Below, one piece after another: positions 1-23,950 of a stretch of 64,000 nt of DNA. Every line of letters begins with the position of its first letter. Position 1 is the stretch's first letter. Source of the stretch: Telopea speciosissima (Eukaryota; Streptophyta; Magnoliopsida; Proteales; Proteaceae); assembly GCF_018873765.1 (NCBI RefSeq), contig NC_057926.1:54573378-54637377 (forward strand), given 5' to 3'. Below the pieces are notes generated by a model that saw nothing but the letters and a program-made list of their open reading frames with translations, was not told where the DNA came from and did no database searches. The position numbers and the translations under genes were made by a program.

Positions 1-898
1 ACAGTGAATGGGATTGGGAGAGGGCGGGAATAGGTATCGAAAGGGTATTTTGAAACATAATAAAACCCTAAGATGGTGGGTGAACCGTCTTCTATAGATG
101 GAGGAAAACTTTGTCCTAATGATTATGTACCTTACTTTTCTTGCTTTGTTTTTTTTTCAATCCCATCCAAGGCGCTTCTCTTGAATCAAATAAAAGGGGG
201 AAAAAACTACAACCTGGACTTACTATTATCCTACATCGTCCACAACCCTTTTCACTAAAAAAGGGAAAGAAAAACCTCCACTTGATCCTCAATTTCCATG
301 CTGTATTTCTCTCTTTTGTATTGGAATTGAAGTCAGAATTGTACGTGAGAATTATACCTATTTCACTTCTCCTTGCGTAGTGTCATTTCTTTAGATTTTC
401 GTGCACATCCTATAATCATCTACTAAATCTTTCTCTAATGCCACTTGTTGAGGACGAATGCGTAATCACAGGTAAAAAAAATCAAACAAACAATCACACA
501 TAACATGAGGAATTTAACGTAGTTTGGCACTGTTGCATCAAGAAATCTCTACCAAGAGTCCTCCTGGGGTTCGGACCTGCACAAGAGAATAAGATGGACA
601 CCAGAGAGCCGGTTTTCATCAGTGGGGGATTCTCTGATGTCTAAGTCAGATCTCTTTGAGCAACAATTGAGAATCATGAAAATGGTTTGTAAGAGGTTAT
701 ACCTGGGTATATATAGCGTTTAGCCAAGGAGTAGGTGGTTCGCGCAAAAAATCTCCACCAAGAGTCTTCCTGAGTTTGGACCTGCACAAGAGAACAAGAT
801 GGACACCAGAGAACTGATTTTCACCAGCGGGGGACTCTCCGATGCCTAAGTCAAATATCTTTGAGCAACAATTGGGAATAGTGAAGATGGTTTGTAAG
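1..898. repeat. Spacer repeat X, left copy (first part)
   Basis: This block matches 9956-10852 at high identity, apart from small indels. It starts in the middle of the repeat, so homology probably extends left of the window. Inside it, a stretch beginning near 551 (accaagagtc) recurs at 757, giving a direct repeat of about 206 bp. The same internal repeat is present in the right copy. I see no coding capacity. The short ORFs here are not conserved between the two copies. Confidence 0.75.
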
Positions 899-1546
899 TA
901 GGGATGTAAATGGATATTCGTAAATTCGTATTCGATCCGCGTTCGTATCCGTTTAGGAGAATCCGAATCCGTCCGAAACTAATCGGATACGAATATGGTA
1001 ATCCCCCTATCCGACCGATCATTATCCGATTCAATTAGCAGTCCGACGGTAATAAAATATCTGAAATATAACTCTGTGTTTGTCTATCCTTTTAAGTTAC
1101 CTTATTAGATTTTGTTATCTTATTTTTATAAATTTATAAGTTAAGATAATTTGATTCTTTTTCTAGATTTGCTATTGGTTTATATATATATATTGTTTTA
1201 TGCAATGTGATACATGGAATTACATATCTATTAAAAAATCAAAAGTAAAAAACGTAAGAGAATAAAAGACTAAGAAGAGTTGAAGAAAGGGTAGTTACTG
1301 AACTCTCAAGTCTCAACCCTAACCCTCATCATAAAAACGGTAAATATGTCAACGGATAGTCGAAAAATCGTATTCGATCCATATTCATATCCATTTAGGA
1401 GAACCTGTATTCAAAAAATCACTATCCAGAAATTATCCGAATCCGTCTGAAAACCAATAGGATATTATCCGAATCTGTCCGAATATAATCGGATACGAAT
1501 ATGATAATGCCACTATCCGGCCGAATTCGATCCGTTTACATCCCTA
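899..1546. mobile_element. hAT-type non-autonomous element (648 bp)
   Basis: The ends are near-perfect inverted repeats: TAGGGATGTAAATGGATA on the left, and TAGGGATGTAAACGGATC on the right read in reverse complement. It is flanked by a perfect 8-bp target-site duplication TTTGTAAG (891-898 and 1547-1554). The sister copy of the spacer has the uninterrupted site once, at 10845-10852. An 8-bp duplication with a TAGGGATGTAAA end is typical of hAT elements. There is no transposase ORF, so it moved in trans. It inserted after the X spacer was duplicated. Confidence 0.92.
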
Positions 1547-1554
1547 TTTGTAAG

Positions 1555-1905
1555 AGGTTATACCTAGGTATATAAAGCGTTTAGCCAAAGAGTAGGCAGT
1601 TCACGTGAGAGTCCCAGTATGGTAGTTTCTATTCTCTATGAGAATATTTCTTAGAGAGGCCTCTTTAGGAGCGAGATTTTTTCTTTCCTTTGTTCCACTC
1701 TCTATTTTAGTAACTTCCATATGGGAATGGAGGGTTACGTGGCCCCCGAGATCGCACTCGGTGTTTTCTTCATGGGTCTTGATCTTGGATATGATCTATT
1801 GGATCTTGGGTCGTCATCCCATGATGACGTGGTGGGACCTTGTTGGGTGGTTATATTTTTGGTATTACACGAAGCACACCCAAAAGAATATAAAGAGATT
1901 TTCCT

Positions 1906-1940
<35 letters not shown>
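1555..1940. repeat. Spacer repeat X, left copy (second part) with TA microsatellite
   Basis: This continues the X repeat after the hAT insertion and matches 10853-11165. A TA dinucleotide run lies at about 1908-1937. No gene is seen. Confidence 0.6.
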
Positions 1941-2490
1941 TGTTAGATGAAATTCTGTTTAGAGAGGAAACTATAAATATGAAAAACTTTCTACACTACT
2001 CTCCACCTCATAAAGTAACTCACTTTCAAGATTCAACAAAGCACTGAAAAATCTAACTTAGAATTCTAGAGAGATTTTGGTTGCAAGAGAGAGAGAGAAT
2101 TAAAAAATTGTGTGTTTTGATCGGCTGAATTACCTTGGTTTATATAGACCCATTGACACCCATTCGCTGGAACGGTCATAACTATTCCAATAGTCATGAT
2201 CATTCCAATAATCATGACTGGTTAACTTCCTCTCTTCTTTATGGGGGGGGGGGGTTGGCTCACCGCTCACCTATCACATGATCCGGTTCCCAAAATGGGA
2301 GAAAGGCTCATCTGTCTTCTACAACACTTTGTCAGTCACACTTTTTCATGTATATATATATATATAAATATTCCATCACACTCTCACTCAGAAGTAGATT
2401 ACTACATTCTATCTTTGAGATAATATACTAAGAGTTTAACCTGTTATCACTACATTGGTGATATTTGATTTTTATAACTCTGTATTATTT
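1941..2490. repeat. Upstream spacer of MLP-A with LTR-like start
   Basis: The stretch from TGTTAGATG at 1941 to about 2230 matches 12150-12510, which ends in TCTAACA. It therefore looks like the left part of a short solo-LTR-like repeat. A G-run lies near 2243-2254. The part after 2265 matches 12760-13020 upstream of MLP-B. There is no gene. Confidence 0.45.
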
Positions 2491-2918
2491 CTGTCACGTG
2501 ACAAGATGCATATACACGTGGTAAGACAACATGAATGCTCTAACAGGTAGGAGGGATCTTGTATGTGGATCCCATGTCGATTACTTAATTCACTTCCAAC
2601 CAGGTCAATCACTCCGACCAATCCAACCCTTTGGGGTTGTATCAGTTCACCATCAACTCAAGTGGGTTGTAGCTTAAACCGATCTGAAGTATAAAAGGAA
2701 CAATGATGGACAAGGATAGATATTCATATTTATTATTATTACCTTATTTTACTCTTACTTAACTATTGTCTGGTTCTGACTTTATCATCGGAGATTAATC
2801 ACGAGTTAACCTCGTGTTAATCAGACCATTGTCTATTCCTCTTACTAGTCATCCACCTCAGCTTAGCTGGAATCCAGCGTCAACAGAGTACTTCCCCATA
2901 TCTCCCGTGTATAAATAG
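2491..2918 (+). promoter_or_regulatory. MLP-A promoter
   Basis: A TATA box (TATAAATAG) lies at 2910-2918, about 90 bp before the start codon. There are two CACGTG G-boxes, at 2495-2500 and 2515-2520. From about 2680 to the start codon the sequence is almost identical to the region upstream of MLP-B, and is unlike that of MLP-D and MLP-E. B lacks the second G-box. No ATG occurs between the TATA box and the MLP start. Confidence 0.7.
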
Positions 2919-3006
2919 CCTAACGTGCTCTCCTTCATCCCATTCTCCTCCTTCCTCAGCTGTGTTTATTCTTTTTGGTTTGCTCCGGTCTCTTTGTAAA
3001 GAAAGC

Positions 3007-3600
3007 ATGTCTTCCGAAGAAGGGGTTTCTACATTTGAGGTGGAGTTTGAGATAAAGTGCTCAGCAGAGAAATTCTTCGACATTTACGCAGACCATGTAA
3101 CCATGTTACCACAGGTTCTCCCTCACATGTTTAGAAGCACCACAGTTGTTAAAGGGGATGGCAAGAGTGTGGGTTCTGTAGTGGACTGGGAATATTTTTT
3201 AGGTAACTATTAACATTCTTCCCTTCTGAATTAATTGCTTCCAAACGGAGACCCTTTATTTATGTATATATTTTACTAATTAAACCTAACTTTGGGTTAA
3301 CTCTTGTTGATCACAGAGCCACCTAGCTTTGAGACTGCAAGGCAAACGATTGAAGCAATAGATGAAGAAAAAATGGTACTCACCAAAAGATTCTACGGTG
3401 GTGATCTGGGGAAAAAGTTTGATCTTTACAGAGCCACACTGACGGCTTTTAAGAAAGATGGAAAGAACTATGTGAAGTGGTGTCTTGATATCAAGAAGAC
3501 GCATGGAGAAATTCCTGAGCCACATGACTATATGGATTTTATTGAGAAGTTCACCAAAGAGTTCGACTCTAGCCTTGCCACTGGAAATGTTTCTGCATAG
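3007..3600 (+). CDS. MLP-A: major latex protein-like, Bet v 1 family
   Basis: Two exons, 3007-3202 and 3317-3600, are joined in phase 1 by a GT-AG intron and encode 159 residues, the usual MLP size. The start is the first ATG after the TATA box. A glycine-rich loop (KGDGKSVGSVVDW, residues 49-61) and a long C-terminal helix (DYMDFIEKFTKEFDSSL, residues 136-152) match the Bet v 1 fold, a small cytosolic barrel with a hydrophobic cavity. Family members bind hydrophobic ligands such as sterols, hormones or alkaloid precursors. The ligand here cannot be read from sequence. The protein is identical to that of MLP-D, and the DNA differs at only three silent sites. The upstream DNA is B-type, so the gene is a recombinant (see findings). 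AATAAA lies near 3842. Confidence 0.95.
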
Positions 3601-3618
3601 ACAGAAAGCAGAAGTAAC

Positions 3619-3638
3619 CTAGCTAGCTAGCTAGCTAG
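3619..3638. repeat. CTAG microsatellite in MLP-A 3' UTR
   Basis: Tandem CTAG repeats lie about 20 bp after the stop codon. All four intact MLP copies carry the run, with varying length: about five units in A and D, four in B and three in E. Confidence 0.85.
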
Positions 3639-3925
3639 AGAATGTGTGTGGCAGTGTGGCACTACCTAGGTTGCATCTAAATAAAAGATAAAGATTTCTC
3701 TACTTCCATGAACTTGAAGACCATATCTTACTGCTTAGCTGAGTTGGTGAAAGGGGCTAGATATGATATGTTGATATGTCCCAATCTTCTGTATGATACT
3801 ATGGTGTGTGTAATACTAGAAACAATGGTCTATGCAGCTATAATAAATAAAAACTTTGTATTTGTATCTTCCAAGTATTAGTTTTAAGTTATCATTAAAA
3901 AAAAATAAAAATGTCTTAGCTTTAA

Positions 3926-4440
3926 GGATTTTTATCCTCTCAATTTCTAATATTGTTGGAAAAAACAAACTCTGTCTGAGAATGTAACTTACACCAGCAC
4001 TCCCATGAGTCTACCTCTATCCTCCCCCATATGAAAAGATGCCTTTACCTCTTATTTTGAGGAGGGAGAGATAGACACATGAGAGTGTTGACATAAACCA
4101 CGCTCTCAGACAATGACTCAATCAGACGTTAGCTCATATACCGTACCACTTATCTGGGCCTAGATCTCTCACAAGCCCGCTGTTGTACGAATTGTACTAA
4201 TAGTTTCCAACCTCCCCCAATAAAACGTAGGATTAATTTGCAATTTATTTTCAACCTCACAACCCAACCAAACCCGTCACTATCTCACCTTTTTTCACCA
4301 CCGATTGTCACTTCCCTTTCTCCCTCATGGTGTTTCTTGTCTCTCAAACTTGATCTCTCCATAACTTCCCTAGTCAAAATCAGGATCACTCCCACCCACA
4401 TGTCAACATTTTAAGGGAGAAATTGAGAGGATAAAAATCC
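3926..4440. mobile_element. Mutator-like MITE, A copy (515 bp)
   Basis: Inverted ends GGATTTTTATCCTCTCAATT (left) and the matching reverse complement (right) are near perfect over 23 bp. The flanks TAGCTTTAA (3917-3925) and TAGCTGTAA (4441-4449) are a 9-bp target duplication with one mismatch, typical of Mutator-like elements. MLP-E's flank has no insertion here (about 29665-29680). The interior holds a possible nested repeat (GTTGGAAA near 3955, TTTCCAAC near 4205). Confidence 0.85.
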
Positions 4441-7276
4441 TAGCTGTAAATGATAGAATTACCATTTGAGTGATCTTCCTTCTAATTAAAATACGATATC
4501 TTATAAATTTCTGTCAAAATGGTATATAGGATGAAACCCGAAACCCAAATTTTATGGACATATAAATCTCAAGATTTGCTACTCACATGTAAAACAACAA
4601 ATTTGAGATGAGATATACTTCTTCACACCCCTCAATGGTGGAACCAAGAAAGCAAACATCGAAATCAAATAGAGGATCTCCATGCATTAGACAATTCCTA
4701 TATGATTTCTATAATTAATGGTTACCTGTAATGATACAAAAGTTGATAATACCCTCATAATTTTATAAATTTTTTTTTAGATAGACATAATTTTATAAAT
4801 TTAAGGCACGCAATTTGAGGATCCTATAGTCATTATGACTATTCAATTTGTGCAAGTACCAATTTTTTACACAAAAATCAAGGACACCATTTTGCAAGCG
4901 GCCAAGAAAACAAGCCGCTATGGTGTAGCCCACGGTTTACCCTAAAAAAAAAACGATAAGTGTAACCCACATTTTTCTGAGTTCAGATCTGCTATCCACA
5001 TGGGCATGTGTCGGTACTCGGTAGGGGACAGATCTGAATCCTCCATGGGGTGTGGAACCCGCCTCTAGGGTGGGGACTCACCCGTCCCCATGTGGGTAGG
5101 TGATCCGGATTCCACTTTTCTTTCTTTATTCCCTCTATGCACCTACAACTTTACTCATATACTTATTGATGACAGTCCCATATAGTGATGCATTGCCCTT
5201 CATGGTGTAATACTACAACAGGTGCTCAAGACCATCAACACTGTCGTGAAGACCTACAAGCTGTTAGAAAAGCAATATCCAGAAATAGGGATTTTTGTAG
5301 AAAAACGCAGATAAAGAGAAAATCACACAAACACACAAAACATATGTCAATATACATATCATTTCAAGGGCGAAACGACCATTCTATCGTGTTTTGAAGG
5401 CAAAATGGCCGCCGAAGAATCGCCACAGCATTTTTTGACTAAGATCAGGCTTCACCAATAACACAAGCTTCGACCCTCCTTCCCTTTGTGACTCGTACAA
5501 CACTTTTGAGGCTGGCTCTTGAGCTAGTTTGAGCCATGTATGCGATGGCGCTCTACTTGCCGGTCACGAGCTCGACCACATGTTTACTTTTCCCATTTGA
5601 TCCTTGTACATCATTGGTTTCTCAAATCTTCATGTTCCATTTGTGGAGATCTATCGAAGTTTTGATACCACTATTGAGATGAATGTACAAATAATAAAAA
5701 AAAAATCAAGCAAACAATCAGGCATAAATGTGAGAAACTTAACGTGGTTCTACATGACTTCTTACATTCACATTCGAGAACCAGGTAATTTTTCAGTAGC
5801 CAAAAAATCTCTACACCACTTTCCACCTCCTTGTGTAATCTCATTCTTACACCTAGGGTTTCCCCCGATAAAGATAATATATAAGCACCCTAGAAATTAA
5901 TTCTCACATAGTTACAATTTTAATCTTGTATATATATAAACCAAAAAAAAAAATGATCCAATTAAATATATACAAAGTCCAACAATAACTGTGTGGGTTC
6001 TGCAGAATAAATGCATGACACAAAACCCAACAAAAAAGGGTAGAATATTGGGGGCAAATCTTTAAATGAATACTCAATACATATGAGTCATAGAGCTTAT
6101 CTTATACTAATATGCAGAATTTATTAACTTTGAATGGAGGAGAAGGAAATCTTTTTGAAATTGCAAAGAAAAAAAATCTACAAAAAATTATAAGGAAATG
6201 AATTTTTCATTTTTGAACAGCCAAATGGATTTAGAATATATTTCTAGACAACCAAATGCGGCATTAAAGGAAAAAAAATAATCTAGCACGACAATTAATT
6301 ATTTTTCGGAGAAATTAAAGAATTTAATATAATAATAAGACTAATTGCTGTGGTAGACTTGGAGGCATATCAATATATAGAAGGGTTGTGATCTTATTAG
6401 TAACACATACTGGTGGCAATCCCCTATATTAAATCGTAAATTAATATACATATCCACTCCAGATCTTGGCTAGTTAAAATCCCTCACCATCATTCTCAGG
6501 CAAAACTTTAAGGAATGAAGAATTGGATCATTATGGTACCCCACCCCACCTTCACCCCACAGAAAAAAAAGAAATTTTTTTTTATTATTAAATATTGTAA
6601 AACTTTTCATAACTCAATATATTAATGTATGCCTATCTAGACAGGTAAATGGGTAGGTGGGAACCCCTTTGTACTCTTTAAACTTTCCATTTACTAGGCA
6701 GGTAAGAACTCTTTACAAGTAGGGTCCTGTCCTTGACCCATGATGATGGGGATATGTAAATGGATAACCATAACCCGTCTTCGAACTAATCTTCTACTTC
6801 TAGATTTGTTTTTGTATGTATGTTTCAAGGACATTAACAATATTGTGGACTCTTTGACAAGGAGGACCCTATCTTAGCATATAAGAGAATTTGATCTATT
6901 TTCAATCTATGGATACAGGAACAATGTTGTCCGATATCCATGCGCCCCACACACTCTCATGATCAATAGTATCTTTCTTAACAAAAAAAAAATGATCTTA
7001 TACCAATGCTAAGAATTTTTTAACCCCAAATAATGGAAGATAATGAAATCCATTAAAATTGCATTAAAATAAAATTATAAAAAAAAGGAAGTGCTTAAAA
7101 GGACCCACATTTTTCATTTTTGGACAACTAACCCATATTTTTTTTATTATTTCATTGGAAAATATATTTCTAGACAGCTAATACGACATCGAAGGAAAAG
7201 AAGTTTAATGTAACAAATAATTGTAGCGACAAAATTGGTTGCCTATTGGGATTAAGCTTGTCTTGAAATACAACAT
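4441..7276. repeat. MLP 3' spacer F, A copy
   Basis: This 2.8-kb non-coding spacer is nearly identical to 23942-26715 (downstream of MLP-D) and more distantly related to 15872-20450 (downstream of MLP-B). It carries AT-rich tracts and one small MITE at 4979-5112. It ends at a junction near 7277, where the D-type sequence stops and E-type 3' flank begins. No gene is supported. Confidence 0.8.
4979..5112. mobile_element. Small Mutator-like MITE, A copy (134 bp)
   Basis: The ends GAGTTCAGATC and GATCCGGATTC are imperfect inverted repeats. The flanks (catttttct at 4970-4978, cacttttct at 5113-5121) are a 9-bp target duplication. The B spacer has an empty site near 16259-16272. A related element lies at about 47089-47232. 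Confidence 0.7.
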
Positions 7277-8124
7277 AAGTATGTTCGATCATAGATAGGG
7301 TTGCTGAGTTGGTGAAAGGGGCTAGTTATGATATCTCCTAATCTTCTTTGTGATACTATGGCGTGTGTAATACTTAGAAACAGTGCTCTATGCAGCTATA
7401 TATAATAAATAAATAAAAACTGAGTATTTGTATTGTCTAAGTCTTAGCTTAATTAAATGATAGAATTATCATTTGGGTGATCTTGCTTCTAATTAAAATA
7501 CGATATGGTAATCTAAATATCTACCAAAGTGGCATATAGGGGGATGAGACAAATTTGATTTTAGATATAATTCTTCCCACTCCTAGCTCTATACTAGAAC
7601 CAAGAAAGCAAACATCCAAAGCAAATAGTGGATCCCCATGCATTAGGCAATGCTTTCTATAATTAATGGTTACCTGTAATGCTACAAAAGTTGATAATAT
7701 CCTCATAATTTTATAAATAATTTTTTTTGGTAGCCATAATTTTATAAATTTACGGCACTCAATTTGTGTATCCTATAGTCTCATCAATCCTTATGAATCT
7801 GATCAACTTTAACCACCTTGGAACTCTAAGTTCCATGCATGAATAAGTCTTTCAGACCATGGGTTCCACATGAGTACATGGAATTTATTGAGAAGGTATT
7901 CGTAAATGGAAGATTCTTCCATCAACTCCATCAAATAAGGGGTGTAAGGGCTTTTATGTCATTTTAAATTGACATTTATATCAATCTGACTGCATTTAAT
8001 GTAGCTATGGCCGTGCATGAAAACTTTTGTCTTATCTTATTATATAAAATTTGAGGGTAAAGATTTTTAGAATAGCTGCCAATGTTGCCTAGATAAGCTT
8101 ATCAAGGTGATCCAAATATTTGTC
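7277..8124. repeat. MLP-E-type 3' flank (spacer G), left copy
   Basis: This block matches 29499-30348 downstream of MLP-E at very high identity, but no MLP-E gene precedes it here. It ends with the same 11-bp LINE target site, AAATATTTGTC (8114-8124). No coding sequence. Confidence 0.8.
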
Positions 8125-9320
8125 AAGGTCATTCAAAAGGCTGCTTTTTCTATCGGTGCTTTTAAATCCCCTAGCATGGATGGCTTTCAGGCTTGTTTTT
8201 ACCACACCTTCTGGGACATTATTGAATTTGATGTTGCAAACTTTGTGACATCTTTTTTTTCCTCGGGGGGTGCTTCCCCCAGGATGCAACCATACCCTAA
8301 TTTGTATGATCACTAAACATGATTTGGCAAGAACCGTGACTGATTTTAGGCCTATTAGCCTTTGCAATGTCTCTGATAAGATTGTGGCTAAAATTTTGGC
8401 AAATAGGCTTTGGGCTTTTCTCCCCCTCTTTATTTCTCCTTTCCAGGCTGTTTTTATTCTTGGTAGACAAATTAATGATACTATTGTGATTGCCCAGGAA
8501 ATTTTCTGATTCCTGAATAAGAAAAAGAATGGTAAGACCGGGTTTGTGGCCATCAAGTTGGACATGGCCAAAGCCTATGATTGGGTTGAGTGGAAAATGA
8601 TTGAACAACTCTCTCGGTTCCTGGGTTTTCCGACCATTGGATTTTTCGATCAACTCCCTTATTAAAACTACCTCCTTTTCGTTAAGATTAATGGAAGCCC
8701 GTTTGGTTATTTTTGCCTTTCTAGGGGACTTCGGCAAGGCTGTCTTTTGAGTCCATACCTTTTTCTCTTCACTATGGAAATCCTTTCCCGTATTTTGCAA
8801 GCTAGCCGTGATGCGGGGCTTTTTAAGGGTATTAGAGTAGCATGGCAGGCTCCTGAAATTTCTCACCTGCTGTTTGCTGATGACACTTTTATTTTTTGTC
8901 GCAACACTGAGGAGGATGTCCTTTCTATTAAAGCTGCCCTTGAACTTTTTTCTGACTTAACTGGTCAAGAAATCAATTTTTCAAAGAGTAAAATCCATTT
9001 TAGCAGAAATACAACTCTTGAAAGGAAAAAATCTATTTGTTCTATCCTAAGGGTTAGAGAGATGAACCATTCTTCCCGCTACTTGGGTACAAATCTTTTT
9101 CACTCACGCTCTAAGGTTAGGGACTTATCTTTCATCATTCAGCGAGTCCAAAATAAACTGACTACCTGGAAAGCAAACTATCTCTCCTATGCTGGAAGAA
9201 AAGTGCTAATACAATCTGTTCTTGCTTCAACTCCTTCTTTCCAGATGTCTTGCTTTCTGTTCCCAAAGAAATGTTGTGCTAAACTTGACTCTATTTATCT
9301 TAATTTCTAGAATAATGGGT
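8125..9320 (+). mobile_element. L1-type LINE, 5'- and 3'-truncated copy
   Basis: Reverse transcriptase fragments read along the plus strand: the N-terminal part (KAAFSIGAFKSPSMDGF), then FRPISLCNV, the DMAKAYDWVEW motif and the catalytic FADD block near 8873-8884. The reading frame is broken by several frameshifts and stops. It is the copy of the LINE at 30349 and ends abruptly at about 9320, where spacer repeat 9321-9955 begins. The rest of the LINE (zinc-knuckle and RNase H) is missing. It was duplicated with its flank, not inserted separately. Confidence 0.88.
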
Positions 9321-9955
9321 AGTTTGGATGCACAATCTCACGAAGAGTGTTATCCACAAGATACAACTGAATTTTGAATTTAATTGTTTGCTAATTCCCT
9401 CAATGTTTGTCATTTATCGTTCCTCATATTCTTTAGTTTTTTTCTTTCTTTTTAATTTCTTCTTGAGAGTCTTGACTGTTTCTTCCCATGTTTTTTTCAT
9501 CCGTTATTGTCATAAGGTGAAATCATTATGACCATTGAAACATTCAATGGTGAAGCTTGAACCCTTAACCACCATATGATTTACCTGATTTATGCCATCC
9601 GTGCGTGCTATCAACCTTAATGAATTTGATTACAGTTGATTTTTGCACTAATCCACACAATCTATACCAACAGAGCACAAGTTGCCAGATCCATCTCTTA
9701 CATTGAGTCTGAAACACTGAAAAACCTCATAAATACCTAATCTTCGTACCACACCCTCTATACAAAGTCACATTTTCGCACAGAACCGAAAACTATATGG
9801 TATCACTCGGATTTTTTTTTGTTCTTCCGAGCACATCATCCTTAACATTTTGCACTTCTTTTTAAAACGGTATAAAGTTTTTTTTTTTTTTTCTCTATTC
9901 ACTTTTTCTCTAGCTCTTGGTAGTAATGATTAGGATTGAGTTTCTCTCCACCCAT
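9321..9955. other. AT-rich spacer between array units
   Basis: No gene or clear element is visible. It lies between the truncated LINE and the second X repeat, with long T runs near 9880. Part of it (about 9600-9660) resembles the end of the MLP 3' spacer. Confidence 0.5.
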
Positions 9956-11165
9956 AGTGAATGGGATCGGGAGAGGGTGGGAATGGGTATTGAGAGGGTA
10001 TTTTGAAACATATTAAAACCCTAGAATGATGGGTGAACCGTCTTCTATAGATGGAGGAAAACTTTGTCCTAATGATTATGTACCTTACTTTTCTTGCTTT
10101 GTTTTTTTTTCAATCCCATCCAAGGCGCTTCTCTTGAATCAAATAAAAGGGGGAAAACTACAACCTGGACGTACTATTATCCTACATCGTCCACAACCCT
10201 TTTCACTGAAAAAAAGAAAGAAAAACCTCCACTTGATCCTCAATTTCCATGTTATAGTTCTCTCTTTTGTATTGGAATTGAAGTCAGAATTGTACGTGAG
10301 AATTATACCTATTTCACTTCTCCTTGCGTAGTGTCATTTCTTTAGATTTTCGTGCACATCCTATAATCATCTACTGAATCTTTCTCTGATGCCACTTGTT
10401 GAGGACGAATGCGTAATCACAGGTAAAAAAAATCAAACAAACAATCACACATAACATGAGGAATTTAACGTGGTTTGGCACTGTTGCATCTAGAAATCTC
10501 TACCAAGAGTCCTCCTGGGCTTGGACCTGCACAAGAGAATAAGATGGGCACCAGATCGAGAGTCGATTTTCACCAGCGGGGGATTCTCCGATGCCTAAGT
10601 CAGATCTCTTTGAGCAACAATTGAGAATCGTGAAGATGGTTTGTAAGAGGTTATACATGGGTATATATAGCGTTTAGCCAAGGAGTAGGTGGTTAGTGCA
10701 AAAAATCTCCACTAAGAGTCTTCCTGGGTTTGGATCTGCACAAGAGAACAAGATGGACACCAGAGAGCCGATTTTCACCAGCAGGGGACTCTCCGATGTC
10801 TAAGTCAGATATCTTTGAGCAACAATTGAGAATAGTGAAGATGGTTTGTAAGAGGTCATACCTGGGTATATATAGCGTTTGGCCAAAGAGTAGGCAGTTC
10901 ACGCTAGAGTCCCAGTATGGTAGTTTCTATTCTCTATGAGAATATTTCTCAGAGAGGCTTCTTTAGGAGCAAGATCTTTTCTTTCCTTTGTTCCACTCTC
11001 TATTTTAGTAACTTCCATATGGGAATGGAAGGTTACGTGGCCCCCGAGATCGCACTCGGTGTTTTCTTCATGGGTCTTGATCTTGGATATGATCTACTGG
11101 ATCTTGGGTCGTCATCCCATGATGACATGGTGCGACCTTATTGGGTGGTTATATTTTTGGTATTA
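9956..11165. repeat. Spacer repeat X, right copy
   Basis: This is the second copy of the X repeat (compare 1-1870). It keeps the internal 206-bp direct repeat and the unoccupied hAT target TTTGTAAG at 10845-10852. It shows no gene. Confidence 0.75.
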
Positions 11166-11594
11166 CAGGCACGAATGCCTACATCCACCCAAGAGAACTA
11201 GAGATCTTCCTCTAAACATGAAAAACTTTCTACACTACTCTCCACCTCATAAAGTGACCTCCCCTTTGTTTATGCTTATGTTTTTACTACGGAGACAATA
11301 TATAGGGAACCCAAAAGCCATAATCTCCACTCCTTTACAATTTTACTCCATACATGTAATGGACTCAAAACCCAATCTATTTACAAATGCTAGTCAAATA
11401 ATAAATATGTAGACCCACAGAATACAAATCACACCCAACCCAAACATTCCTTGTATTTCTCAAGTGTGGTAGAACTATGATCGGGTGGAGAGACTTCAAT
11501 TGAGGAGTGTTTCCTCCTCCATGTAAAATTCACATCTTAGAAGAGATGGATCCGATCATCAAAGATTCGGGCGTTGGTTGAGTTAAATTCCCAA

Positions 11595-11643
<49 letters not shown>

Positions 11644-12149
11644 TGTGTTAAGAATCATATCAGTTGAAATTGCAAATTATGGAGCAATACCTCACGCACA
11701 TTGTAATTAATTAACAAGATAGGATGTTGACCCATTAAGATAGAGGGACCTGGGGACCATATGAAATCATTGGATTTCTTATGTTTCATAATTTAGGGTT
11801 ACAGCACTTAATCACGATTAGCATAGAAAAAGAAATCCAATTATCAGTATTTAATTTGGCGTCGTGCATCTCGTTGGAGTGGAGTCGTTAATCAAAGAAA
11901 TTTGACCTCAATAATTGGGCATTTTATATGCCATATATATTACAAAGAGATATATCCATAGATCTTATGTTTCGATTTTGCAATTCCTTAAAATTCTTTC
12001 ATCTTTGAGTAGGCCCAGCCCAATTTCATTTTCAAGCAAAATTTTCACAATCCTAACATGGCTAGAGCCTAGAGTACTAGACATGATTTGAACTTCTATA
12101 AGAGATTTGAACACACCAACCTAGTATTTGTGTATATATATATATTTAT
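11166..12149. repeat. Spacer with CT/TG microsatellite
   Basis: A compound microsatellite (CT then TG) lies at about 11598-11648. The rest is AT-rich, has no counterpart in the left unit and contains no gene I recognise. Confidence 0.55.
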
Positions 12150-12548
12150 TATTAGATGAAATTTTGTTTGGAGAAGAAAACTATAAATTGCTTTGAACGC
12201 GTACTCGTTGTCTTAAAAGAGATATTTGCCCCCACACGATTGAAGCAAATTCACCTTTAGGATTCAACAAAGCATTGAAGAATCTAACTTAGATTCTAGA
12301 GAGATTCTGATTGCAAGAGAGAGAGAGAGAGAGAGAGAGTATTTAACAAATTGTGTGTTTTGATCGACTAGAACGGAACGGTCATAACTGGAACCCATTC
12401 ACTGGAACGATCATAACTATTTCAATAGTCTCATTGGCACCCATTCACTGGAACGGTCATAACTATTTCAATAGTCATGATCATTCCAATAATCATGACT
12501 AATCTCTTCTTCATGGGTTTAAAACCCTTTATTACAATCTATCTAACA
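12150..12548. mobile_element. Short solo-LTR-like repeat, old
   Basis: The block starts TATTAGATG (TGTTAGATG in the left unit at 1941) and ends TCTAACA. It shares the internal stretch tttgaacgcg...gagatatttgcccc with the LTR-like insertions at 20841 and 27120. It is a diverged member of that LTR family. No internal region is present. Confidence 0.45.
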
Positions 12549-13812
12549 TATATGTAGTGCCTTTCATGCATGCCTCTGCTGATTCCATACATCAACTCAG
12601 TGGTCTGAAACCTTGATCAACGGCCCATTTGGTTGGACCAATTGACCTCCCACCAGGCCTCGAAGACAAGATGTTCCAACTCTTTGAATTGATCATCTCT
12701 CCCAATAAAACAAAACAAATGGAAAATTACATGATTAACTACTTTTGGGTGAGGTGGCTCACGTACCACATGATCCGGTTCCCAAAATGGGAGAAAGGCT
12801 GACTTGTCTTCTACAACACTTTTTTTTTTTTTTTTGGTAAACTTCTACAACACTTTGTCAGTCACACTTTTTTATGTATATATATATTCCATCACATTCT
12901 CAGTCAGAAGTAGATTACTACATTCTAACTTTGAGATAATATACTAAGAGTTTAACTAGTTATCACTACATTGGTGATATTTGATTTTTATAACTATGTA
13001 TTATTTCTGTCACGTGGCAATTCAGATGAAGCTGAAATTTTTGTGATCGACAAGACCCCATGATTTTCTATTTACCTGTCAAGTTTCAAGTTAATTAGAG
13101 TTTTTCACATTGCAAAACAAACCATTAAAATTTCAAGACTGCAAAAAACAGGGTGCATAGCTAGGGGTTGCCTGGACATAAATGAGGAGGGTATGCCATT
13201 ATATACATGTTGAAATGATCAAATTCGAGATTAAAATTTGACATGTGGTTAATCTACAACATTTATTAGATATCACACGGTGGACTTATAACATTAATAT
13301 TATTACAGAGACTAGAATGAGAGCCATGGTTACATTAATGCATTTGTCACTAAGCATGGTGACAACAAGATTTTCCATTTATTAGTTACCCACACTTGGA
13401 GTATGATATACACAAAAGTGGCAAGACAACATGAATGCACTAACAACTAGGAGGGAAGACCCTGTACGTGGATCCCATATCGATCACTTAATTCACTTCC
13501 AACTAGGTGAGTCACTCCGACCAATCCAAACCTGTGGGGTTGTAACAGTTCACCATCAACTCAAGTGGATTGTAGCTTAAACCGATCTGAAGTATAAAAG
13601 GAACAATGATGGACAAGGATAGATATTCATATTTATTATTATTACCTTATTTTACTCTTACTTAACTATTGTCTGGTTCTGACTTTATCATCGGAGATTA
13701 ATCACGAGTTAACCTCGTGTTAAACAGACCATTGTCTATTCCTCTTACTAGTCATCCACCTCAGATTAGCTGGAATCCAGCGTCAACAGAGTACTTCCCC
13801 ATATCTCCCGTG
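12549..13812. other. MLP-B upstream region
   Basis: This AT-rich upstream DNA includes a stretch (13190-13440) that matches the regions upstream of psiC (20480-20700) and MLP-D (22180-22300). CACGTG occurs near 13013 (ctgtcacgtggc), far from the TATA box. The proximal G-box seen in A, D and E reads acaaaagtggc here and is lost. Confidence 0.5.
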
Positions 13813-13821
13813 TATAAATAG
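13813..13821 (+). promoter_or_regulatory. TATA box of MLP-B
   Basis: TATAAATAG lies about 90 bp upstream of the MLP-B start codon, in a block almost identical to the MLP-A promoter. Confidence 0.7.
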
Positions 13822-13909
13822 CCTAACGTGCTCTCCTTCATCCCATTCTCCTCCTTCCTCAGCTGTGTTTATTCTTTTTGGTTTGCTCCGGTCTCTTTGT
13901 AAAGAAAGC

Positions 13910-14502
13910 ATGTCTTCCGAAGAAGGGGTTTCTACATTTGAGGTGGAGTTTGAGATAAAGTGCTCAGCAGAGAAATTCTTCGACATTTACGCAGACCATG
14001 TAACCATGTTGCCACAGGTCCTCCCTCACATGTTTAGAAGCACCACAGTTGTCAAAGGGGATGGCAAGAGTGTGGGTTCTGTAGTGGACTGGGAATATTT
14101 TTTAGGTAACTATTAACATTCTTCCCTTTTGAATTAATTGCTTCCAAACAGAGACCCTTTATTTATGATGTATTTTACAAATTAAACCTAATTTTGGGTT
14201 AACTCTTGTTGATCACAGAGCCACCTATCTTTGAGACTGCAAGGCAAACTATTGAAGCAATAGATGAAGAAAAAATGGTACTCACCAAAAGATTCTACGG
14301 TGGTGATCTGGGGAAAAAATTTGATCTTTACAGAGCCACACTGACGGCTTTTAAGAAAGATGGAAAGAACTATGTGAAGTGGTGTCTTGATATCAAGAAG
14401 ACGCATGGAGAAATTCCTGAGCCACATGACTACATGGATTTTATTGAGAAGTTCACCAAAGAGTTCGACTCTAGCCTTGCCAGTGGAAATATTTCTGTAT
14501 AG
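13910..14502 (+). CDS. MLP-B: major latex protein-like, Bet v 1 family
   Basis: Exons 13910-14105 and 14219-14502 join in phase 1 to give 159 residues. The glycine-rich loop (residues 49-61) and C-terminal helix are intact. Compared with MLP-A and MLP-D it has S69I, T154S, V157I and A159V, and silent changes in exon 1. The promoter and 5' leader are shared with MLP-A. Its 3' spacer has collected an unusual load of transposons: a 1-kb Mutator-like element, two solo LTRs and an L1 fragment. Function as for the family: a small cytosolic ligand-binding protein. The ligand is unknown. Confidence 0.95.
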
Positions 14503-14829
14503 ACAAAAACCAGAAAGTTCTTACCTAGCTAGCTAGCTAGAGAATGTGTGTTGTGGCACTAGCTAGGTGGCATCTAAATGAAAGATAAAGATTACGTATC
14601 TGTGAAGGTGTGCCGGCGTATGAGTATAACTTTGTTCAATCATAGCTAGGGTTGCTTAAATTTCTCTACTTCCAATGAACTTGAAGACCCGTTGGTGACA
14701 GTGGCTAGATATGATATGTCTCAATCTTATGTATGATACTATGGCGTGTGTAATATACTAAAAACAATGGTCTACGCAGCTATAATAAATAAAACCTTTG
14801 TATTTGTATTTTTCAAGTCTTAGTTTTAA

Positions 14830-15871
14830 GGATTTTTATCCTCTCAATTTCTAATCTGTCAATTTCTATAAATTTCCCCCTTAGAATGTCGATATTGGAC
14901 GATCAGATTTCAATTTCCAAATTTCACCCACCCAATCCTAAGCTAACCTGAGTTATCCGTTTCTCTCTCCTCTCTCACTCCTCCCTCTCTTGACGCCGAA
15001 CACAACCCCGGCGATGACGATGGAAGATGACTCAGCAGGAGGCGGCGGTAGGAGATCAGGATTGGGTCTAGTGAGATCTTGGTTGGAGTCGCTTAATTTG
15101 AACACTTCAATTTTTTAAGATGGCTTCGCTTTACTTGGTCTTCCGGGAATGAAATCGAAACCACGTAGGTGAAGCCGAAGGGACAAAAAAGATAGAGAAG
15201 AGAAGAGATTATCCAGAGTAACAGAAGGGGAGAGCACCGAAAATTCAGGCATTTTAATGGAATTTGAAGGACATTGTATATATATGAGGCACCATTATAG
15301 AGCACAAGTGGGTTTCTTACAGAACTTAAGTTTAAGGGAGTGAGTAATTAGATGTTCTAAAGAATTTCTCGGTTCAGTTTTTCCTTAAATCTGATTATCA
15401 AAATCAATTCCAAATGAGTGTTTCTTAAAACAAATGGGCAAAATTAATTCATGGCCTGCTTCATACATCAAAGATTGAGATTCTTTTAGGGTTAAAATCC
15501 AGATCGAGCTTTTTAAGGGTAATGGGTTACATGTTCTAACGAATTTCTGGGTTCAGTTTTTACAGAAGGTTCAGAGTTGATTTTGCCAGATCTGAGTTAT
15601 GTTCATTGATTCATAGCTTGGGTTTTGAATTGGTTCATATTATAGACATCAAGTTCGGTTTGATTTTTTTTTTTTTAAGCTCTTGATGGGTGAGAGAGGA
15701 GAGGTCAGAGAGCACTGAATTGAGAGAGGAGAGAGAAACAGGTAACTCGAGTTAGGATAGAATTGAATGGGTGAAATTTGGGCATTGAAATCTGATCGTC
15801 GATTTCAAGTACCATGTGATAACATTTTAAGGGAGAAATTGACGGATATGAAATTGAGAAAATAAAAATCT
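14830..15871. mobile_element. Mutator-like element with long inverted repeats, B copy (Pack-MULE candidate)
   Basis: It sits at the same site as the A and D elements: GGATTTTTATCC end, flanks TAGTTTTAA at 14821-14829 and TAGCTGTAA at 15872-15880. It is 1,042 bp with a different interior. The subterminal regions form a long imperfect inverted repeat: gatcagatttcaatttcc near 14918 pairs with its reverse complement near 15780-15800, continuing through ctctctcc. Between them is a GC-richer, gene-like stretch near 15014-15110 reading MTMEDDSAGGGGRRSG and then RSWLESLNLN. This suggests a captured host exon. Mobility genes are absent. Confidence 0.75.
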
Positions 15872-15880
15872 TAGCTGTAA

Positions 15881-16112
15881 ATGATAGAATTATTATTTGG
15901 GCGATCTTGCTTTTAATTAAAATACAATCTTATAAATTTATCCAGGTAATCTAAATATCTGACAAAGCGATCTTTGTCCTCTGTACCATCATCAACCCTA
16001 ATGAACCTGATCAACTTTAATCACCTTGGTCTCATCAAAGAAAAAAAAAAAAAAAAAAAACTTTAATCACCTTGGAACTCCAAGCTCCACGCATGAATAA
16101 GTCTCTCATCCA

Positions 16113-16150
<38 letters not shown>

Positions 16151-16423
16151 TTTCTTCTCGAGCCCTCTCTTTTCCTAAGGTGCAACTACCAATTTTTTAC
16201 ACAAAAATCAAGGACACCATTTCGCAAGCGGCCAAGAAAACAAGCCCTTGTGGTGTAGCCCACACTTTTCTTTCTTTATTCCCTCTGTGCACGTACAACT
16301 TTACTCGTATACTCATCGATGACAGACCTATATAGTGATGCATCGCCCTTCATGGTGTAATACCGTAACAAGAGCTCAAGAACATCAATACTGCCGTGAT
16401 GAACTGCAAGTTGTTAGAAAAAC
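15881..16423. repeat. MLP 3' spacer F, B copy (first part)
   Basis: Matches 4450-5260 and 23951-24700 at moderate identity, without the small MITE found there. It holds an A run near 16040 and a TC microsatellite at 16115-16148. No gene. Confidence 0.65.
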
Positions 16424-17140
16424 TGTTGGGGTCCTTCTCATTAAAGAGGGACAGCTACCGTCCTTGACAAATGGCCTGGACAGTGGAGTGAATTACAAAA
16501 TCAAATAAAAATATAGAGAAAGAAAAGAGAGTAATGGAGAGTAATAAGCTAATGGCCAAAATAGCAATCGGCCATTAAATGGAAGGAAGAAAAAATGGGG
16601 AGGGGTGCCTCCCACCTACCTTGTTTTGTTTAATAACGTGAAGAACAAGGTGAACGCTCCTCTATCATTTCCTATAATTAGGGGTAAGAGAAAGGGTTCT
16701 ATACAGGTCGAACATACAAGTTCAAGAACTGTGAGTGTGGGAGAGTTGTTTGGAATTATTGGGTTTTGAGTATTCTCTTCAGGGGTTTGAGAGTGTGAGT
16801 TGAGAGAGGATGTACAAGAGGTATCCGGATTTGTATACAGGGTTGGGTTTGACTTAAATCCAAATGTACGTTATTACTTGTACGGTTGTTCTCTCAAGTT
16901 CTCTCATAGTGAAGAAGTCCCAATTACGCCCATGGATGTAGGCATTGCCAAACCATATAAACACTTGTATCTGTGAGTTTATTTGCTTTTATCATTTTTA
17001 TACGCTCTTTGTATGTTCTCACTTTGTATTAACATGGTCACTATTCATGTGACACTATGCACAGTTACTATTCACGTACTGCCGTATTTCTCGAGTTTTC
17101 TTTATATAGGTGGAAAATGATTTCTGTACTTTTCCCAACA
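16424..17140. mobile_element. Solo LTR (717 bp), family unassigned
   Basis: The ends TGTTGGG and CCCAACA are perfect inverted repeats of the LTR type. The flanks AAAAC (16419-16423) and AAAAT (17141-17145) fit a 5-bp target duplication with one change. The D spacer has the unoccupied site near 24690. No internal retroelement region is present, so it is a solo LTR, and it inserted only in the MLP-B lineage. Confidence 0.75.
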
Positions 17141-17145
17141 AAAAT

Positions 17146-17950
17146 AACCCCAGAAATAGGGATTTTTGCAGAAAAAAGAAGATAAAGAGAAGATCACACA
17201 AACACACAAGCTTCAACCCTCCTTTCCTCTATGAATCGTACAACACTTTGAGGCTGGCTCTTAGGGTGGTTTGTGCCAACTATGCGATGGCGCTCTACTT
17301 ACCGGTCACAAACTCGATCACATGTTTACTTTTCTCATTTGATCCTTGCACATCGTTGGTTCCCCAAATCCTCATGTTCCACTTGTGGAGATCTGTCGAA
17401 GTTCTGATACCACTATTGAGATGAGTGTACATATAAGAAAAAGAAATCAAGCAAACAATCAGGCATAAACGTGAGAAACTTAACTTGGTTCAACACGAAT
17501 GCCTACATTCACATTAGAGAACCAGATAATACTTCTGTAGTGCGCCAAAAAATCTCTACACCACTTTCCACCTCCTTGTGTAATCTCATTCTTACACCTA
17601 GGGTTTTTCCCCAATAAAGATAATATATAAGCACCCTAGAAACTAATTCTCAAACAATTAAATTCTAGTACATATATGAACCAAAAAAATGAGCCAACTA
17701 AATATATACAAGGTCCAACAACAACTGCGTGGGTTCTGCAGAATACACAACACAAAACCCAACAAAAAAGGGTAGGATATTTGGGGTAAATCTGTAAATG
17801 GATACTCACTATATATGAGTCATAGAACTGATTTTATACTAATATGCAGAATTTTTAACCCTGAATAGAGGAGAATGAAATATTTTTAAAATTGCACAGC
17901 AATAAAATCGACAAAAAATTATAAGAGACTAAGAAAGAGCTTAAAGAACC
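17146..17950. repeat. MLP 3' spacer F, B copy (second part)
   Basis: Continues the F spacer after the solo LTR and aligns with about 5270-6200 and 24710-25640. Non-coding. Confidence 0.6.
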
Positions 17951-17960
17951 CACATTTTTT

Positions 17961-18564
17961 TTTTGCTAAAGGTCAGCAAAGTATGTATTAATATAAAAGA
18001 ATATGAAATACAAGAATGACTGGAAGACTAACTAAAAGAAAAAGGCCCAGAAAATTGCCGATTGCTTTCGGCAACGCCCGTAGCGAAAGGCAAACCCTGA
18101 GCCCTATTACAAAAGAGCAGAGAAGTCTCTTAAAAGAAACTCAAAAATCAGAGAGCCGCTTAGGTAAATCTGTAGTAGGGGTGACCTAGAGCATCCCCAG
18201 AGATCGCATGTGCAATGAAATGAGGGGATTCAGTCCAAATGTTTGAAGTCTTCACTTTTGCCGCATGATTCGCTAAGGCATCAGCAGGCGCATTTGCTTC
18301 CCGATAATAGTGGGAGAGTCGCCACTGTATAGAGTCAAGGAAAATAGAGACCATCCACCAGTTCTATAGGAAACACCAAGGAATCCTGTGGGAAAGGATG
18401 GATGTTACCACGGTTGTCGAGTCACTCTCAATCCATAGCATATCAATATGTAAATCCCGTGCCTACTTGATCCCCTCAAAGAACGCTGCCATCTCTACCC
18501 TGAAATTTGTTCCCACCCCCTGCTAGGACGAGAAACATCTAATAGCAGAACCAACATAGCTGTT
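17961..18564 (-). mobile_element. L1-type LINE 3' fragment (RNase H domain)
   Basis: A minus-strand reading (18160-18354) shows the C-terminal LINE RNase H signature WRLSHYYREANAPADALANHA. The poly(A) tail reads as the T run at the left edge. The flanks CACATTTTTT (17951-17960 and 18565-18574) are a perfect 10-bp target duplication. It is a 5'-truncated insertion of about 600 bp, specific to the MLP-B spacer. Confidence 0.88.
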
Positions 18565-18574
18565 CACATTTTTT

Positions 18575-18791
18575 ATTTTTGAACAGCCTAATAGATTTCT
18601 TTCAATAATTTTTTTCTTCAGTGGAAGAATATATTTCTAAACAACAAAATTTGCAGCATTGAAGGGAAAAAATTCTTCCACGTGCTTCCACGTGTAACGA
18701 TTAAATTATTTCCAAGAGAAATTAAAAAGTTTAATATAATAACAAGGATAATTGCTGTGGTAGAATTGGAGGCATATCAATATTAATTAGG
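18575..18791. repeat. MLP 3' spacer F, B copy (third part)
   Basis: Aligns with about 6210-6390 and 25650-25830. Non-coding, interrupted at 18797 by a solo LTR. Confidence 0.6.
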
Positions 18792-18796
18792 GTTGT

Positions 18797-19506
18797 TGAT
18801 GAGGCATAAAACACCCTACCTATCGGAGGTTGCCACGTGGCTGATCCGACCTCAGTCTGAGAACCGAGTTGAGCCGAGCAGGAGAATGGGCCGACCCCAT
18901 CTTCGATAAGTCATCTGACAGAGCCAGGCTCGAGTGAGCTGGCCGGTGGTTGAGGCCGAGCTCATACAGGTCAGCCAGACTCCTAGCCGAGCTTGAGGCC
19001 GAGAACCACCTCTCGGGCCGACCTCCTCTGCCGACCCCTTGGGCCGACCTCCGAGGCTGAGCCCTCCTCCACTGAGGCTGCCATAGCACCCCGCCGGGGA
19101 TCTCTGGGCCACGTCAGCACATCCCGAGAATCACGGGATAAGGATCGAGCCACGATCCCAGCACAACACGGAATCGCACTCTACATGGACTCTTACCTTA
19201 ATAAGAGTCCGACCCCGAAAATGACTCTCCACTCCGCTCTACGCGGGAGAACCTTCCGAAAGAAGGACTCCTACCATACTAGGACTCTTCCATCCGTCTC
19301 ATCTCCTCCTCACTCTATAAATACCCAGGTATGGAGCACTATTCCTCATCTCACTTTTACTAGCAGTTACGCTGTTGCATTGGAGACCTGACTTGAGCAT
19401 CGGAGAGTCCTAGGCCGGAGCCACACCGGCCCTCTTGCGCTCATTGCTTGGTTTTTGCAGGCTCATCCGCGGGCGAACCAAGCACCGGAGGTTTTCACAC
19501 GCAACA
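18797..19506 (+). mobile_element. Solo LTR (710 bp), probably Ty3/gypsy type
   Basis: It starts TGATGAGGC and ends CGCAACA, flanked by a perfect 5-bp duplication GTTGT (18792-18796 and 19507-19511). The empty site (agggttgtgatc) is present once in both sister spacers (near 6382 and 25820). A TATA-like tataaatacc near 19315 is followed by a transcribed-leader-like stretch. It is distinctly GC-richer than its surroundings. No internal region is present. The intact ends and perfect duplication suggest a fairly young insertion. The gypsy assignment rests on general LTR appearance only. Confidence 0.88.
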
Positions 19507-19511
19507 GTTGT

Positions 19512-20460
19512 GATCTTATTAGTAACACATAGTGGTGGCAATCCCCTATATTAAATCATAAATTAATATACATATCCACTCCACATCTTGGCTAGTTAAA
19601 ATCCCTCACAATCATTCTCAGGCAAAACTTTAAGGAATGAAGAATTGGATCATTACAGTACCCCCAACCCCACCTTCACGGCTTCACCCCAGAGAAAAAA
19701 GGGAATTTTTTTTTTATTATTATTATTAAATATTGTAAAACTTTTCATAATTCAGTAAATTAATGTATGCCTATCTAGACAGGTAAATGGGAAGGGTGAA
19801 CTCTTTAAACTTTCTATTTACTAGGAAGGTAAGAACTCTTTACGCTTACCTTATCTGTTTTTTTCTGTAATGGTATGAATCCTTGACCCATGACCTTCAA
19901 AAAAAGGACATAGTATTTTTTGGAGATGGGGATATATAAATGGATAACCATCTAACCATTGACAATCTTCCATGTATGTTCCAAGGACATTAATAATATT
20001 GCCGACTCTTTGACAAGAGGCCCTATCTTTAGCATGTAAGACAAATTGGTCTATTTTCAATTGATGGATACAGGAACAATGTTGTCAGATATCCATGCGC
20101 CCCACACACTCTCATGATCAATAGTATTTTTCTTAACAAAAAAAATTGATCTTATACCAATGCTAAGAATTTTTTAACCCCAAATAATGGAAGATAATGA
20201 AATCCATTAAAATTGCATTAAAATAAAATTATTAAAAAAAGGAAGTGCTTAAAAGGACCCACATTTTTCATTTTTGGACAACTAACCCATATTTTTTTTA
20301 TTATTTCATTGGAAAATATATTTCTAGACAGCTAATACGACATCGAAGGAAAAGAAATTTAATGTAACAAATAATTGTAGCGACAAAATTAGTTGCCTAT
20401 TGGGATTAAGCTTGTCTTGAAATACAACATAAAAGTGTTTGAATAGCACATTGGCCTATA
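19512..20460. repeat. MLP 3' spacer F, B copy (last part)
   Basis: Aligns closely with 25826-26725 and with 6390-7276. Non-coding. Confidence 0.65.
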
Positions 20461-20840
20461 GGGACTGTCAGGTCATACACGAAAGGGTATGCCATTATAT
20501 ATAGATTGAAAAATGTTTGAATTTGAGATTGAAATTTGATATGTTGCTAATATAGACCATTTCTTAGATATCCAACGGTGAGCTTGTCACATCACTCTTC
20601 CTTTTGGTTTTTTTCTTACCACATTGTCACATAACTCTTCCATGAAATGAAAAGAGAGTCATGGTTACAATGCATTTGTCACCAAATGTGGTGACAACAA
20701 GATTTCCCCACAGTACATCTCATATCTCCCTTGTAATCGTGTATAAATAACCTAACCTGCTCTCCTCCATCCCAACATCCTCCTTCCTCAGTTGTGTTTA
20801 TTCTTTTTTCGTTTGCTTCAGTATCTTTGTGTGTGTATGT
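20461..20840 (+). promoter_or_regulatory. Promoter remnant of psiC
   Basis: This upstream DNA is related to the region before MLP-B and MLP-D. TATAAATAA lies at 20742-20750, followed by a leader (ctgctctcctccatcccaac...) matching the other MLP leaders. It is cut off from its start codon by the LTR-like insertion at 20841. Confidence 0.6.
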
Positions 20841-21467
20841 TGTTGGAAAAAACTCTGATTGAAGAAGGAATCTTCAAACTGCTTTGAACGCGATCTCGCT
20901 ATCTTAAAGGAGATATTCGCCCCACACGACAAAATCACCTTCTGGAATCAACAAAGCAATAAAAATTAAAACACAGAACTCCTTTTAGAGATACTGAATT
21001 GTAAGAGAGAGAGAGAGATATTTTGTTTGAACACAGTACTTCTATAGAAGTGGAGCACCTCTTCTGAATAGACATATCTATTCATTTTGTATTTAGACCA
21101 TTAGATCGATTGTCATCCGATCTAACGGTCCAAATAAAATCAGAGATGAACCTGTTCACAACAGTCACATCCTATCAAACGTGATCCACGGATCTGATCA
21201 TTTCAAAAAATCAACGTACCAGATGATGCAAAGCAGCCACTAACGCCTCTACTGTCCACGCCACACGTGCGCGTACGCGTATGCGGATGGCTACCGTATA
21301 TACACCGTAGAATGTCTCCCTTTTTCGATTTAATTCAAGAGATAAAGAAGATAATATAATAAATACCATTTACAACTCTTGTAGTTTTTCGATGTGGGAC
21401 TAAAGCACTTTGACCAAAATAACAAAGTATTTATTTAATCTCTCATTTTATTACAATCTATCTAACA
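20841..21467. mobile_element. Solo-LTR-like insertion (627 bp) in the psiC leader
   Basis: Starts TGTTGGA and ends TCTAACA, imperfect LTR-style ends. The flanks tatgt and tatat are a weak 5-bp duplication. It sits between the promoter and the ATG of psiC. An equal-length copy lies at 27120-27746. It contains the motif tttgaacgcgatctcg...gagatattcgcccc, shared with 12150-12548. It inserted before the 6.3-kb duplication. Confidence 0.6.
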
Positions 21468-21495
21468 TATATTATCATGTCATTGTAAAGAAAGC

Positions 21496-21836
21496 ATGTC
21501 TTCGACACACGTCCTCCCTCTCACATGTTTAAGGCCACCTCAGTGGTTAAAGGGGATGGCAAGAGTGTGAGTTCTGTAATAGACTGGGAATACGCTTTAG
21601 GTAATTATAATATTCTTCAATTCCCTTCTAAATTACATCCAAACAGACCCTTTAGTTATGTGTTTCACAATGGCTAACTTTTGAGTTCTTGTTGATAACA
21701 GAGCCACCTAACTTTGAGACTACAAGGTAGACGATTGAAGCACTAGATGAAGAAAAAATGGTACTCACTAAAAGATTTTATGGTGGACATCTTGGGAAAA
21801 AAATTTGATCTTTTCAGGGCCACACTGAAGGCTTTA
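21496..21836 (+). pseudogene. psiC: broken MLP copy
   Basis: The ATG and the first three codons match the MLP start. Most of exon 1 is then missing (roughly residues 4 to 36), and the rest of exon 1 resumes out of frame at the gtcctccctctcacatg stretch. The intron is present. Exon 2 starts near 21703, carries a TAG where the intact genes have Gln75, has a frameshift at the glycine-lysine stretch, and stops matching after gaaggcttt (about 21836). Together with the LTR-like insertion in its leader, this copy cannot make an MLP. Confidence 0.9.
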
Positions 21837-22293: not shown

Positions 22294-22356
22294 CACGTGG
22301 CAAGGCAACATGAACATTCACCCCCTCGCGTCAACAGGTGTCCCGTGTATAAATAA
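22294..22356 (+). promoter_or_regulatory. MLP-D promoter core
   Basis: A G-box CACGTG at 22294-22299 precedes a TATA box TATAAATAA at 22348-22356. The leader contains a GT-rich run (tgtgtgttgtgtgt) just before the start codon, shared with MLP-E but not with A or B. Confidence 0.7.
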
Positions 22357-23941: not shown

Positions 23942-23950
23942 TAGCTGTAA

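Follow-up and report, generated by a model that had tools for sequence, protein, structure and literature searches.

The window analyzed here is a 64,000-nucleotide stretch of the Telopea speciosissima genome (C11:54573378-54637377, in an assembly of 822.9 Mb and 1287 contigs) and carries a tandem array of genes whose predicted products are MLP-type members of the Bet v 1 family. Four of the genes, MLP-A, MLP-B, MLP-D, and MLP-E (hereafter A, B, D, and E), are intact, and two pseudogene fragments, C and F, contain internal stops. The family searches used protein A alone, which matches Bet_v_1 in Pfam (PF00407, E 2.6e-27) over residues 7-152 of 159 and finds MLP-like protein 28 as its best PDB match (2i9y, E 2.3e-16). 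A protein search of the genome gave at least 45 matches; A, B, D, and E are the four intact genes nearest A among the matches listed, all lie within one array, and C and F are also among the array matches. More distant relatives were found at 52.28-52.47 Mb on C11 and on C2, C3, and C8. The C11 group (C11:52283834-52469066, about 2 Mb away on the same contig) is a larger cluster of distant MLP relatives with 30-41% identity. Elsewhere in the window, two reading frames on the reverse strand resemble, by eye, a methyltransferase (39534-40414) and a phosphoglucomutase/phosphomannomutase (58795-61475). An Rfam scan of positions 1-36000 and a tRNA scan of the whole window returned no match.

Table 1. 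Features of the MLP array, in window coordinates (negative positions lie before the window start)
Feature	Position	Strand	Remarks
Promoter segment of about 345 bp, A copy	2536..2877 (ends approximate)	+	Common to A and B; D, E, C, and F lack it upstream of the TATA box
MLP-A exon 1	3007..3202	+	ATG at 3007, GT donor after 3202; holds the identity switch 3055-3107
A stretch collinear with D (22521-26711)	3055..7278	+	Gene body about 0.5%, spacer about 4% divergent
MLP-A exon 2	3317..3600	+	Completes a 159-aa protein identical to MLP-D
Copy of 29498-31547	7275..9320	+	E 3' UTR and retroelement with reverse transcriptase; 1.0% divergent
Head-to-tail junction	9318..9320	.	GGT (3 bp) shared; joins the left copy (-611..9320) to the right copy (9318..31547)
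MLP-B gene	13910..14502 (exons 13910-14105, 14219-14502)	+	Relative of A on the 5' side
Fragment C and D upstream region	19972..22519	+	1.5% from F and E upstream region (26252-28798)
MLP-D gene	22473..23066 (exons 22473-22668, 22783-23066)	+	E-like to 22520, A-like from 22559
Pseudogene fragment F	27785..28114	+	Partner of fragment C (21506-21835); stops inside both
MLP-E gene	28752..29364 (exons 28752-28947, 29081-29364)	+	Relative of D on the 5' side

The surroundings of A form the left copy of a head-to-tail duplication and are collinear with the right copy, which holds the other genes and fragments. Two stretches are missing from the left copy, one of 8.6 kb that starts in B exon 1 and ends in D exon 1 (13957-22520) and one that contains F and E (26712-29501), and the block at its right end meets the A spacer at a join where 4 bp (ATAA) are shared. 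Between the left and right copies, the 5' blocks diverge by 5.5, 4.6, 12.8, 9.2, and 3.3%, the two blocks that D also has by 2.2 and 3.8%, and the retroelement block by 1.0% (21/2046). Because these values are so uneven (1.0-12.8%), no single date fits, and one duplication date for the whole left copy is ruled out (3.2% for A-D versus 1.0% for the retroelement block, p 3e-7). The E 3' UTR/retroelement block, at 1.0% against 2-13% elsewhere, may have undergone later conversion or have an uneven haplotype history.

The original prediction held that the upstream DNA, leader, and first 16 codons of A match B, that A matches D from codon 34 on, and that the switch falls between 3055 and 3107. At the 33 substitution sites that separate B from D in 2903-3696, A is B-type at all eight up to 3054 and D-type at 24 of the 25 from 3108 onward (permutation p 5e-6, 1 in 200,000; Fisher p 6e-7), so that the nearest relative of A changes sharply within a homologous stretch, and the bounding sites coincide with the predicted interval. 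The sole exception on the D side, 3528, is a change private to D, at which E agrees with A and B. Six indel events side with the substitutions, A being B-type at 2932, 2949, 2965, and 2994 and D-type at 3265 and 3650. Codon 16 reads ATA in A and B and ATC in D and E; codon 34 reads TTG in B and TTA in the three other genes; and A and B lack both the GT-rich stretch that D and E have in the leader and three other short insertions there. Outward from the switch, the flanks of A track the same two relatives in blocks: likeness to B runs from 3054 back to -611 in five aligned blocks with 3.3-12.8% divergence (2933 aligned sites out of 3665 bases), and likeness to D runs from 3055 to 7278. The D-like 3' spacer had thus been correctly recognized, but its length, put at 2.8 kb, was understated, as it reaches about 3.7 kb beyond the stop codon. 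The A and D proteins are identical (159/159 residues), and A and B differ, as judged from the translations, at four residues, all in exon 2; a D-type protein would thus stand behind a B-type promoter, as had been proposed.

The exon 1 switch is supported by the informative-site test; the raw change-point scans alone give no support. A single change-point scan of raw mismatches did not pick exon 1 for either A-B or D-E. The strongest change-points, 3581 for A-B (interval 3563-3589) and 23066 for D-E (23039-23114), both sit near stop codons, at the start of the indel-rich and poorly aligned 3' UTR, and the change-point for A-D on the 3' side is at 3824 (3775-3855). Counts in this region depend on the alignment, 2510-3054 yielding 22 A-B substitutions in one and 18 in another.

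A is not alone in changing its nearest relative. With E and A as references, and in A coordinates, D sides with E at eight of the nine sites through 3054 and with A at 53 of the 55 from 3093 on, the alignment being gapped around 3648-3664 so that the sites there are not independent. The exceptions are private changes, of E at 2907 and of A at 3117 and 3247. The D switch (3054-3093) falls in the same interval as that of A. Upstream of it, 2.5 kb of D sequence with fragment C differs from the E upstream region with F at 39 of 2547 sites (1.5%); downstream, D and E differ at 68 of 815 (8.3%) in the gene end and at 225 of 1886 (11.9%) over all aligned 3' blocks (39/2547 versus 225/1886, p 5e-47). 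A is therefore a mosaic with respect to B and D, and D with respect to E and A, within a common interval and with identical proteins. The reciprocal combination is seen in none of the four genes in the informative-site comparison. The switch records a real homologous exchange in this tandem Bet v 1/MLP array, and to that extent the idea of exchange between tandem paralogs inside exon 1 is upheld; its product may be either A or D, which switches as well.

Fragments C and F served as the outgroup for polarity. Two derived substitutions on the 5' side (2918, 2943) unite A with B, and four, together with three insertions, unite D with E. Four on the 3' side (3147, 3217, 3432, and 3456, of which 3217 adjoins an indel) are common to A, B, and D, and three (3268, 3277, 3417) to A and D. 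Site 3108, seemingly derived in A, D, and E, was left out, because the BLAST alignments of C and F start beyond it, at 3110 and 3122. Five topologies of the six sequences were compared on each side. The best tree on the 5' side is ((A,B),(D,E)), and on the 3' side (((A,D),B),E), with the other four rejected there (AU 0.0011 to 0.006). Each side's best tree is rejected on the opposite side: the 3' tree at AU 2.6e-45, a value extreme for 216 columns that we read merely as small, and the 5' tree at AU 0.0011. The tree (((D,E),B),A) is not rejected on the 5' side (AU 0.13).

Leaving out one gene at a time, the conflict between the two sides vanishes in one of the four pruned sets, the one without D, where (A,B),E is best on both sides and the alternatives stand unrejected (AU 0.13-0.28). 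Dropping A makes (D,E),B best on the 5' side and (B,D),E on the 3' side; dropping E gives (A,B),D on the 5' side and (A,D),B on the 3' side; and dropping B gives (D,E),A and (A,D),E, respectively. At the 0.05 level, alternatives are rejected in just two cases, both on the 5' side: with A left out (AU 0.034) and with B left out (AU 0.042). The values elsewhere are 0.07-0.29; without A, the 3' side fails to reject D with E (AU 0.29). Given this weak support from the pruned trees, the direction of exchange rests more on distances.

The distances themselves are divided. Over the flanks, in sums that omit stretches failing to align, A and B differ at 179 of 2933 sites (6.1%) on the 5' side and at 221 of 2905 (7.6%) on the 3' side (p 0.026), a divergence across the switch close to that of an unbroken pair. 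Near the gene, A and B differ at 6 of 498 sites before the switch versus 26 of 583 after it (p 0.003), an indication of exchange between A and B as well. Within 3055-3854, the gene bodies of A and D are four substitutions apart, and their spacers differ at 105 of 2593 or 99 of 2592 sites, depending on the alignment. Flank distances and, weakly, the pruned trees thus point to D as the product, and gene-proximal distances to A.

The reading we favor, at a little short of an even chance, takes D as the hybrid and A as the donor of its body, in which case a single exchange would suffice. One unequal crossover within the first 34 codons would have joined an E-type front, with its upstream region and pseudogene fragment, to an A-type body and spacer, giving the present D. 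A would then be a relic of the body donor, keeping an older B-type promoter common to A and B by descent, and the outcome would be one protein behind two promoter types. A crossover rather than gene conversion is our inference; the flanks are exchanged over kilobases, but with uneven divergence. Since B as it stands cannot be the 3' donor, an A-like copy or allele must be assumed. A simple unequal crossover of E with B was tried and rejected, as it predicts B-D spacers as close as C and F (1.5%), whereas 136 of 1215 sites (11.2%) differ over the five blocks from 15850 to 18796; the block before these differs by 7.7% and the two after by 4.7 and 1.5%. B or E as the sole recombinant was likewise rejected, since neither would account for A and D being alike after the switch and unlike before it. 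The spacer after B (14660-20432) is 11% from the A and D spacers over the 15850-18796 blocks and about 5% from 19507 on.

The strongest competitor, distinctly possible although we rate it below the origin of D by crossover, makes A the hybrid: the array would have been duplicated in tandem, a homologous deletion in the left copy between B exon 1 and D exon 1 would have removed 8.6 kb, and the D front would reflect a separate event. Haemoglobin Lepore, a fusion gene that results when the DNA between two direct repeats is deleted, provides the formal model, with the difference that for the MLP array the direction is a matter of probability. The collinearity of the left copy with 9318..31547, in which the part missing at the switch runs from B exon 1 to D exon 1, speaks for such a deletion, as do the strong triplet test of A against B and D and the closeness of A and B just before the switch. 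It predicts, however, that A-B divergence on the 5' side equals A-D divergence on the 3' side, and the two differ (6.1% versus 134/4149, 3.2%; p 1e-8). It also requires that D underwent a further event whose boundary matches to within about 50 bp, and the retroelement block, just 1.0% divergent, is unlike the product of a single duplication date.

Repeated gene conversion without any single chimera, by copying of short tracts (from the promoter to codon 33 for the A-B pair, the gene body for A-D, and the upstream region for D-E), appears improbable. Divergence is indeed lowest around the gene, with two A-B mismatches in 2710-3107 and three A-D mismatches in the 769 sites before 3824 followed by 34 in the next 788, whereas most windows in the flanks differ by 2-9%, and the 5' regions of C with D and of F with E are only 1.5% apart over 2.5 kb. 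Yet tracts of different pairs would need to stop within one 50-bp part of exon 1, and A and D are collinear for 3.7 kb beyond the gene. Least probable, and very unlikely, is an assembly error, whether a second haplotype joined in tandem as the left copy or B and D reads collapsed at 3055-3107. The 1.0% divergence of the retroelement block would suit it, but there is no N in the window or in the 20 kb before it, the duplication junction is clean, and the A gene has at least eight matches in the genome, all in one array, with none on another contig among the matches listed. Furthermore, the seven other left-right blocks, at 2.2-12.8%, exceed the heterozygosity of T. speciosissima, for which the cited portion of PMC13080361 quotes 0.76%.

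Upstream of the TATA box, the A and D promoters have little in common. Within the window, the segment of about 345 bp occurs at A and B only, the B copy (13436-13780) lying close upstream of the TATA box, and a block found farther upstream is common to B, D, E, C, and F. As that block lies near the TATA box in C and F, the segment was probably inserted in the A/B line. It may be a transposon; a simple scan of it found no terminal repeats of 8 bp or more. In the distal promoter, the motif ACACGTGG, which we take to be G-box-like, is kept in A, D, and E, and B has a 13-bp gap there (13408-13435, 2503-2535, 22282-22314). Because A keeps this motif and its positions 2510-2609 are 84% identical to B (in one alignment), the A promoter is not simply a recent copy of that of B. 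The two promoter types may act differently.

Hybrid genes in tandem arrays, and promoter change by unequal exchange, are already known in plants and man. The exchange between CYP11B1 and CYP11B2 changes regulation. In the cited portion of a report on glucocorticoid-remediable aldosteronism (PMC8750845), unequal crossing over of these two similar genes gives a chimeric fusion; the parents and the disease are known there, whereas in the MLP array either A or D may be the product and a change in expression is putative. At the cucumber F locus, as described in the part of PMC7072070 used here, one copy of the tandem duplication CsACS1/CsACS1G has its coding sequence kept and a recombinant distal promoter; that promoter came from the unrelated BCAT with a join at -410 bp, whereas the MLP genes are joined within exon 1 and have fronts that both come from one family. 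For the duplicate pair p1/p2 of maize, the section cited from PMC3014980 describes unequal crossover and end-joining leading to chimeric regulatory signals, from a comparison of alleles with phenotypes, as against a single assembly for the MLP array. A literature search covering few subscription journals found nothing on MLP arrays with gene conversion or expression divergence. Given the precedents of the cucumber F locus, maize p1, and CYP11B1/CYP11B2, the novelty of the MLP case is low.

It is a clear case in which paralogs of a plant array trade fronts with the protein unchanged (0 of 159 residues differ between A and D). Matching one gene to two others fails to reveal which gene is the hybrid, and it was the fourth copy, E, together with the pseudogene outgroups C and F, that changed the reading here. 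A broader proposal, which we regard as rather doubtful, is that codons 16-33 are a recurrent hinge, at which at least two independent exchanges, of A with B and of D with E, broke in the same 40-50 bp and reshuffled promoters over an unchanged protein. If so, A and D would constitute a natural promoter-swap experiment, setting a B-type promoter with its extra segment of about 345 bp against an E-type promoter.
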